A stretch of DNA of 20,947 nt from Tangfeifania sp. (GTDB lineage Bacteria; Bacteroidota; Bacteroidia; Bacteroidales; Prolixibacteraceae). The stretch is from contig JAGYMR010000019.1 in the NCBI GenBank assembly GCA_018400515.1, forward strand, positions 1-20,947, in the 5' to 3' direction. Position numbers and translations under genes: made by a program. The notes below the pieces were generated by a model. The model worked only from the letters and a program-made list of their open reading frames with translations. It did no database searches and had not been told where the DNA came from. Below, in pieces: positions 3,010 through 3,946 of the stretch. Numbering within the stretch: the stretch's first letter is position 1; the number at the start of each line of letters is the position of its first letter.

Positions 3010-3714
3010 TCAATCAAACCAATAACGATCCTTTTTAAAAATCCACTTTCCCCAATAAACAAAGGGCGTATCGGCGGCGGCAACAATCCATTTCAGAAAG
3101 TAGGTAGTGATAAAAATTTCCAACAAGACCTTTGCATCATATACCCCCCAAAAAGCGATCAAAACAAAAATGGCACTGTCGATCAATTGCGATACCATGG
3201 TGCTGAGGTTATTGCGCAGCCAGATCTGACGGTCTTTTGAGAAGCGTTTCCTCCAGAAATGATACGCCCAGACATCATGGCGCTGGGAAAAGAGGTAAGC
3301 CGTAAGGCTGGCCAGGGCAATGCGGGGCATCAGTTTAAAAATGGTTCCGGTCGCTTTGTGGGTAACAAATGAAAAATCATCGCCCGCCAGGGGTGAAAAT
3401 TCCAGGGAAAGGTTCATCAGCAAAGTCATCGATATCAGGCTGAAGAAACCGATCCAGACCGCTTTTTTGGCATCCTCCTTCCCGTAATTTTCCGAAAGAA
3501 TATCGGTAACCAGGAAAGAAGAGGCATAGACGATGTTCCCGAGGGTAGCCGCCATACCAAACAACCGGATGGTCTGGATCACCTGAATATTCGCCACGAT
3601 TCCTGAAACAGGGATCCAGATAATCAATCCCCATTTACCAAACAATTTATAGGCAAGAATAATAAGCAGGAAGTTTGCCAGTAGCATGGCCAGCCATAGC
3701 AATTCGTTAGACAT
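3010..3714 (-). CDS. yhhQ: VUT-family queuosine precursor transporter
   Basis: An inner-membrane protein of 234 residues predicted to import 7-deazaguanine precursors (preQ0/preQ1) for queuosine tRNA modification. It has about six hydrophobic segments. The family signature TDILSENYGKEDAKKA (70-85) lies after the second or third segment, and the C-terminal part contains the conserved QLIDSAIFVLIAF stretch. Length matches the YhhQ/DUF165 family. The start is the first ATG (MSNELLWLAM), immediately after an A-rich tract and a strong hairpin that could control translation. It sits between the methylglyoxal synthase remnant and lysC on the same strand. Family membership is secure; which precursor is carried cannot be read from the sequence. 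Confidence 0.9.
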   Translation of the reverse strand: MSNELLWLAMLLANFLLIILAYKLFGKWGLIIWIPVSGIVANIQVIQTIRLFGMAATLGNIVYASSFLVTDILSENYGKEDAKKAVWIGFFSLISMTLLMNLSLEFSPLAGDDFSFVTHKATGTIFKLMPRIALASLTAYLFSQRHDVWAYHFWRKRFSKDRQIWLRNNLSTMVSQLIDSAIFVLIAFWGVYDAKVLLEIFITTYFLKWIVAAADTPFVYWGKWIFKKDRYWFD

Positions 3715-3751
3715 TTTTTTTATTTTTACCGCAGGGTGATGGAACCTGCGG
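3712..3751 (-). promoter_or_regulatory. Hairpin plus A-rich tail at the transporter start: candidate preQ1-I-like riboswitch
   Basis: Read on the minus strand, CCGCAGG (3751-3745) pairs perfectly with CCTGCGG (3735-3729), closing a 9-nt loop TTCCATCAC. An A-rich linker (TAAAAATAAAAAAA, 3728-3715) follows and runs straight into the ATG at 3714-3712. PreQ1-I aptamers have one short stem, a loop starting with U and ending with C, then an A-rich strand, with loop bases pairing to the downstream end as a pseudoknot. Here CAU in the loop could pair with the AUG itself. The downstream gene is a queuosine-precursor transporter, the expected target. The 14-nt linker is longer than usual, though the 7-bp stem is too. 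It has A rather than T after the stem, so it is not a terminator. Confidence 0.45.
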
Positions 3752-3799: not shown

Positions 3800-3946
3800 T
3801 TACCCCAGATCCAGATCCCGTGAGATGTACGACTGATAATTTTTTATTGCCGGTTTATAATGTGCGTGGAACAAGTCGGAAGAGATGATAAAGTCTTTTT
3901 TCCGGTGGTCATGGGCCACGATGGCGATATTCTTTTTCCGTTTCAT
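3800..3946 (-). pseudogene. mgsA: Methylglyoxal synthase remnant, large in-frame internal deletion
   Basis: A 48-codon frame that joins both ends of methylglyoxal synthase and lacks the middle. Residues 6-17 (NIAIVAHDHRKK) match the enzyme's conserved N-terminal strand, IALVAHDH in E. coli. Residues 18-46 (DFIISSDLFHAHY ... NYQSYISRDL) match its C-terminus, ADFIIQSPHF...IPDYQRYLADRL. About 100 residues are missing, including the phosphate-binding ATGTTG segment, the catalytic GGDQQ aspartate and the FFWDPL...PHD region, so methylglyoxal cannot be made by it. The junction falls at a D-[F/L]-I codon string that probably existed in both halves, suggesting deletion between short repeats. It lies 31 nt after the mutase stop. 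An assembly artefact is possible but would need to keep frame. Confidence 0.8.

Follow-up and report, generated by a model that had tools for sequence, protein, structure and literature searches.

A putative preQ1 class I riboswitch that would bury the start codon of a queuosine-precursor transporter gene in Bacteroidota

In a stretch of 20,947 nucleotides from Tangfeifania sp. (hereafter the window), a queuosine-precursor transporter gene begins directly behind a short hairpin and an A-rich strand, and the question addressed here is whether this leader is a preQ1 riboswitch and, if so, how it would act on the start codon in which it ends. The gene matched the profiles TIGR00697 ("queuosine precursor transporter") at 214.9 bits (cut-off 50.95) and Vut_1 at 180.2 bits (cut-off 27.2), in agreement with the VUT/YhhQ target named in the initial annotation; its nearest relative in the tree was found in Tangfeifania diversioriginum (L001; 84% identical), and a search of solved structures gave no match for the transporter. 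The perfect 7-bp stem, 9-nt loop and 14-nt A-rich strand running into AUG, previously described from the letters, were confirmed on the minus strand (Table 1). The 40-nt element folded at -11.8 kcal/mol, compared with -3.29 +/- 1.75 kcal/mol for shuffled sequences (z = -4.86), and none of 200 shuffles reached as low a value.

Table 1. Coordinates of the element, its parts and its target gene in the window, and loci of the paralogue leaders
Feature	Position	Strand	Basis or remark
Whole element	3751-3712	minus	CCGCAGG-UUCCAUCAC-CCUGCGG, then 14 nt A-rich, then AUG of transporter
P1 5' strand CCGCAGG (core GCAGG, 3749-3745)	3745..3751	minus	sequence and folding
Loop UUCCAUCAC, 9 nt	3736..3744	minus	U6 to C14 in E. 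coli type III numbering
Loop bases U6, U7, C8, C12, A13	3744, 3743, 3742, 3738, 3737	minus	E. coli type III numbering
C9-A10-U11	3741-3739	minus	proposed strand facing AUG
C14	3736	minus	proposed preQ1 specificity base
P1 3' strand CCUGCGG	3729..3735	minus	7 Watson-Crick pairs with 5' strand
L3, A-rich 14-nt strand UAAAAAUAAAAAAA	3715..3728	minus	last A (3715) matches E. coli type III A27
AUG start codon, proposed P2 3' strand	3712..3714	minus	A3714-U3739, U3713-A3740, G3712-C3741
Queuosine-precursor transporter, YhhQ/VUT family, 234 aa	3010..3714	minus	family profiles
Paralogue leaders with type II-like element	loci L184-L191, L197-L199, L217-L222

Homologues were found at 60 loci and 56 of their leaders were examined, L040 contributing just 30 nt. 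The hairpin, again with an A-tract and AUG behind it, recurred in 22 of the 56, all of them Bacteroidota loci, and the window hairpin is for this reason taken to be more than chance; the leaders of Spirochaete and Bacillota homologues carried, by eye, classical-looking preQ1-I letters instead. A covariance model (R1) built from 20 hairpin sequences gave one strong match each in 17 of 21 genomes of those loci (31.3-38 bits); the best match in the other four was at most 18.6 bits, and every second match in the set was at most 22.8 bits. When the 140 genomes of the D. orientale family were searched, 46 had one strong match each (at least 29.8 bits; 12 of these 46 had contributed sequences to the model) and seven further matches were found at 21.8-23.7 bits. 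All 46 strong matches lay within 150 nt upstream of a transporter orthologue on the same strand, compared with none of the seven weak ones. At E < 1e-100, 52 genes like that of the window were found in these 140 genomes; the element was present in 46 of these orthologues and absent in six. Orthologues without hairpin and A-tract, whether lost or never possessed, were L019 (one gene with L178), L173 and L174-L177.

A strong match was found in 5 of 56 genomes of the family of Labilibaculum filiforme (L012), in 3 of 295 genomes drawn evenly from the order and in 1 of 395 drawn evenly from the phylum, the last being D. orientale itself; searches covering more than 40 genomes ran stricter filters, which lose weak matches. 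On the strength of these counts, taken with the 46 of 140, the element has a narrow distribution and is linked to the transporter gene. Use of the hairpin elsewhere was considered and rejected: the second matches in the 21 genomes and the seven weak ones of the D. orientale family, given above, were discarded, as were the weak R1 matches of the order draw (up to 26.9 bits), the L. filiforme family (24.6 bits) and the phylum draw (up to 26.5 bits); the letters inspected, which came from all of these sets but the D. orientale family, were without A-tract and AUG. A type III-plus-AUG pattern gave seven matches in the 395 phylum genomes and three in the reversed control, none of the seven having more than 3 consecutive P1 pairs, and no element remnants were found near the start in 12 loci without the element.

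Fifty-three distinct elements, including that of the window, were compared, of which 45 are compact; in the other eight, P1 and AUG lie 70-78 nt apart. Loop positions U6, C9, U11 and C14 were identical in all 53, and position 10 was A in 52 and G in one. Position 7 was G in 36 and U in 17, position 8 was G in 36 and C in 17, position 12 was C in 48 and A in five, and position 13 was A in 45 and U in eight; the loop accordingly starts with UG (36) or UU (17) and ends with AC (45) or UC (8). The core pairs of P1 (G-C, C-G, A-U, G-C and G-C) hold in 53, 51, 53, 53 and 53 elements, respectively, with the top two pairs G-C in 53/53. A comparison of homologue leaders, with covariation in the stem as its object, had been advised in the initial annotation; the hairpin was present in most orthologues, as given above, and six lack it, while the core stem is nearly invariant and pairing support, which is partial, comes from the outer pairs. 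Pairs -1 and -2 are each formed in 28 of the 45 compact elements, against 19.5 and 18.5 in shuffles, and 28 was reached in 0 and 6 of 5000 shuffles, respectively, which ignore kinship; pair -3, at 7 of 45, does not exceed the shuffles.

AAAAAA stands directly before AUG in 52 of the 53 elements versus 0 of 10 orthologues that lack the hairpin, and the core-to-AUG linker measures 15-20 nt in the compact elements. The eight long elements form one clade (support 100/100; L010, L012, L014, L018, L020, L022, L122 and L123), in which P1 and the A-tract are parted by 70-78 nt, mostly a second hairpin, and A-tract and AUG are still joined; folding of six of them placed a second helix between P1 and A-tract in five. 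The Bacteroidota promoter box TAnnTTTG was found within 80 nt upstream in 46 of the 53 (278 of 4600 random stretches), in 41 of these at 22-32 nt before the core and typically at about 27 nt; in its exact form it was absent from the 80 nt upstream of the window element. With the box so close upstream, the hairpin would lie near the mRNA 5' end and the leader would be short. As the aptamer would moreover end in the start codon, control would be at the level of translation, and for that last reason no terminator role is proposed.

The window loop was compared with that of the yhhQ leader of E. coli K-12, a type III element of known structure (PDB 8fza; PMC11625349, cited here, like PMC10622847, from excerpts), which reads UUGGG-UUCCCUCAC-CCCAA-UGGUUAAUCAAAAAGG. 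Between UUCCAUCAC in the window and UUCCCUCAC in E. coli, 8 of 9 letters are the same and the sole difference is C10 to A10; by our own arithmetic, the odds that a random 9-nt loop is as similar to a given loop are roughly 1 in 9,000. In the E. coli element (loop U6, U7, C8, C9, C10, U11, C12, A13, C14) the pairs are U11-A28, C10-G29 and C9-G30, and A27 and A28 are the first Shine-Dalgarno letters (PMC10622847). In the window the pairs would become U11-A, A10-U and C9-G, the AGG of the tail being replaced by AUG; C10 to A10 is the change needed for pairing with U instead of G, and the pairing would thus be retained, now with the start codon. Going by the aligned letters, the A that immediately precedes AUG corresponds to A27 in E. 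coli numbering and the first base of AUG to A28. In E. coli A27 contacts preQ1, A28 lies in the pocket ceiling and U7 takes part in the pocket, and changes of U, C and A at the matching positions lower preQ1 affinity more than 35,000-fold (PMC10622847).

The designation of the element as preQ1-I type, made in the initial annotation, stood as regards the class I plan: a short P1 with a top G-C pair, a loop with U first and C last, an A-rich L3 and a queuosine-pathway target gene are present, and the structural plan is conserved in relatives. What it fits within that class is type III, as in E. coli yhhQ, and not the type behind the RF00522 consensus. It shares with type III the target gene family, the translational setting, a 9-nt pyrimidine-rich loop with U first (UU start) and AC before the 3' strand, a three-nt L2 and an A-tract directly before the P2 strand (PMC10622847). 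The longer linker had been taken for the main departure, and this did not hold, since the type III tail is itself A-rich, longer and variable in length (PMC10622847); the distance from the 5-bp core to the A28 position is 13 nt in E. coli and 16 nt in the window. The differences are that the P2 strand is AUG where E. coli has the Shine-Dalgarno AAGG, that position 10 is A where E. coli has C, that most relatives have G7-G8 (36/53) where type III has U7-C8, and that the host belongs to the Bacteroidota: types I and II are listed for this phylum, and type III is described as almost exclusively from Pseudomonadota (PMC11625349, excerpt). Given the majority of G7-G8 loops, the pocket cannot be identical in all elements. 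Because the AAGG strand is absent, with AUG in its place, the element is not a plain type III member and, judged by its letters, is best classed as a start-codon variant of the class I type III preQ1 riboswitch.

The hairpin model R1 gave the E. coli element 4.6 bits (rank 13 among 19 matches over 6 kb) and fails to recognise it because stem letters dominate the model. Type II elements (T. tengcongensis, B. subtilis) have in common with the window the H-type plan, AC before the P1 3' strand and an A-rich L3, and differ in having P2 upstream of AUG. Type II loops are also longer, at 10-12 nt. Type I (C. antarcticum) likewise shares the H-type plan, its UC before the 3' strand occurring in 8 of the 53 relatives, and differs in a larger loop which takes two ligands (PMC11625349).

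A scan with RF00522 (PreQ1; gathering cut-off 39 bits), which had been proposed as a check, decided nothing. With E values of up to 10 allowed, neither 76 bases of the window nor the yhhQ leader of E. coli K-12 (L200, 4677-4711), which contains the proven type III element, gave a match; since that element is missed as well, the silence on the window is no evidence against a riboswitch. The intended function of the model is the same, yet it misses both, and such elements are thereby shown to escape it. One match was obtained in 10 element-bearing loci (L009, 22.3 bits) and one in L036 of the Spirochaete/Bacillota homologue set (35.1 bits), both below the cut-off, and none at E up to 1 in 11 VUT-paralogue loci. 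An Rfam scan of the whole window returned five matches, all far below cut-off and none at the site of the element, where no Rfam preQ1 family, preQ1-II and preQ1-III included, was found.

The queuosine pathway was surveyed in 16 element-bearing genomes. Tgt and QueA were found in all 16 and QueF in eight; QueC was found at E < 1e-70 in the same eight, the other eight having only weak QueC-family matches (best 3.6e-6). If Tgt and QueA act as their families do, the presence of QueA and absence of QueF would imply that the eight QueF-less genomes, which may be incomplete, obtain queuosine only from an imported base, which should be preQ1. In 7 of the 8 QueF-bearing genomes a distant transporter paralogue adjoins QueC and QueF. 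The leader of this paralogue carries a type II-like preQ1 class I element in 13 genomes (17 of the 28 scanned loci, of which some coincide), with the form ACGUG-UUCUUGAUAAC-CACGU-AAAAAACAAG or near it and a P2 (CUUG/CAAG) situated 2-4 nt before AUG.

The complementarity of loop CAU to AUG, pointed out earlier for the window, was kept in 53 of 53 elements, in one of them via G-U: the single exception at position 10 (L018) has G, which still pairs with U, and this element also has a mismatched P1 pair. As AUG hardly varies, classical covariation is unobtainable here, and there is no true double change within the group. The letter at +4 was counted where M.N[EA] or M...N[EA] followed AUG (the first of two in-frame AUGs being taken in L001). 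Loop UGGCAU meets AUGC in 36/36 elements and loop UUCCAU in 7/17, the +4 letters of the UUC loops being C in seven, A in seven and U in three; this link between loop type and +4 is significant if kinship is left uncorrected (Fisher test, P = 1e-6). On a protein tree made without the first six residues, +4 changed seven times among UUC rows and not once among UGG rows, and loop type changed six times; a kinship-aware independent-pairs test had three usable pairs, too few to reach significance. As a pattern in the letters, the link lends indirect support to P2 pairing; the protein sequence may also constrain codon 2.

Taken together, the element is probably a preQ1-sensing translational riboswitch of class I type III build in which the start codon replaces the Shine-Dalgarno sequence; we infer the binding of preQ1. 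When plentiful, preQ1 would stack on the top G-C pair of P1, with C14 reading its guanine-like face and U6 and the adenines before AUG contacting its other edges. C9-A10-U11 would then pair with AUG, the start codon would be buried in P2 and translation would stop; in UGG loops a fourth pair, between G8 and the C at +4, would lengthen P2. Without preQ1 the weak P2 of 3-4 bp would open to leave an unstructured A-rich stretch before AUG, which would suit initiation in Bacteroidota. The net effect would be feedback, sufficient preQ1 shutting off its own importer. Bacteroidota make little use of Shine-Dalgarno pairing, and a start codon serving as the hidden strand fits bacteria in which a ribosome-binding sequence is little used. 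The balance of the evidence tilts towards an expression platform that has moved onto AUG itself, which would form the P2 3' strand and whose A would be the ceiling of the preQ1 pocket, so that ligand and initiator tRNA would compete for the same three bases and, in one branch, codon 2 would supply a fourth pair.

It is conceivable, though unlikely, that the element is a preQ1 class I aptamer in which pairing of the loop with AUG is unimportant and the ligand acts by tying up the A-rich strand, an indirect occlusion as proposed for type I. There the pseudoknot outweighs Shine-Dalgarno sequestration, and regulation persists with the Shine-Dalgarno moved by up to 10 nt (PMC11625349, excerpt). P2 has only three pairs in UUC loops, and the P2 of the paralogue element lies ahead of its AUG, so direct burial of the start codon is not needed at that gene. 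Against such a reading stand the exchange of C10 for A10 together with that of AGG for AUG, the zero distance from A-tract to AUG, and the link between loop and +4, all of which favour direct pairing with the start codon.

A different ligand on the same scaffold (preQ0, queuine or another deazapurine) is decidedly improbable. YhhQ imports preQ0 or preQ1 (PMC11625349), type II elements bind both according to the excerpted literature, and pocket positions 7 and 8 vary in the present set; however, in the half of the surveyed genomes without QueF, preQ0 could not feed queuosine, with QueA in 16/16 the import of preQ1, and not of queuine, is to be expected, and E. coli type III prefers preQ1 over preQ0 by 133-fold (PMC10622847).

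Still less credit is given to the possibility that there is no riboswitch, and that the hairpin serves as a protein-binding site, protects the 5' end of the mRNA or is a spacer to a translation-promoting A-rich start. P1 does lie near the 5' end, about 27 nt past the TAnnTTTG box in many relatives, and adenines before AUG help initiation in Bacteroidota, where A-rich starts are usual (PMC6847099, excerpt). However, the loop has eight of the nine letters of a proven aptamer, the conserved letters are those that contact the ligand, and strong model matches occur only at this importer. A chance hairpin, which the shortness of the element might suggest, is practically untenable in view of the z of -4.86 and conservation in 52 further distinct copies, by which it is refuted.

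No preQ1 riboswitch pairing with a start codon was found in a literature search which left most subscription papers outside (including the McCown 2014 type III alignment), nor in the excerpts of PMC12519234, PMC10907184, PMC3766115 and PMC2258182. Riboswitches in mRNAs without a Shine-Dalgarno sequence are named as a future challenge in a 2024 review, which adds that searches tuned to that sequence will miss them (PMC11625349, excerpt). The present locus offers a concrete and small case that is open to testing: an aptamer of known structure is nearly copied, and the strand that pairs with the Shine-Dalgarno there would here pair with the start codon; if this is true, salvage-only members of the group would have a preQ1 sensor.

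A further reading frame of 48 amino acids was noted in the vicinity of the transporter gene (window 3800-3946, minus strand). Over residues 1-20 it resembles the N-terminal end of methylglyoxal synthase (19.7 bits to NCBIfam NF003559; cut-off 84), and the sequence that matches its later part is found in the relatives L001 and L002 some 300 nt farther along. From its sequence the frame looks like an mgsA gene minus its middle, or an assembly fault.
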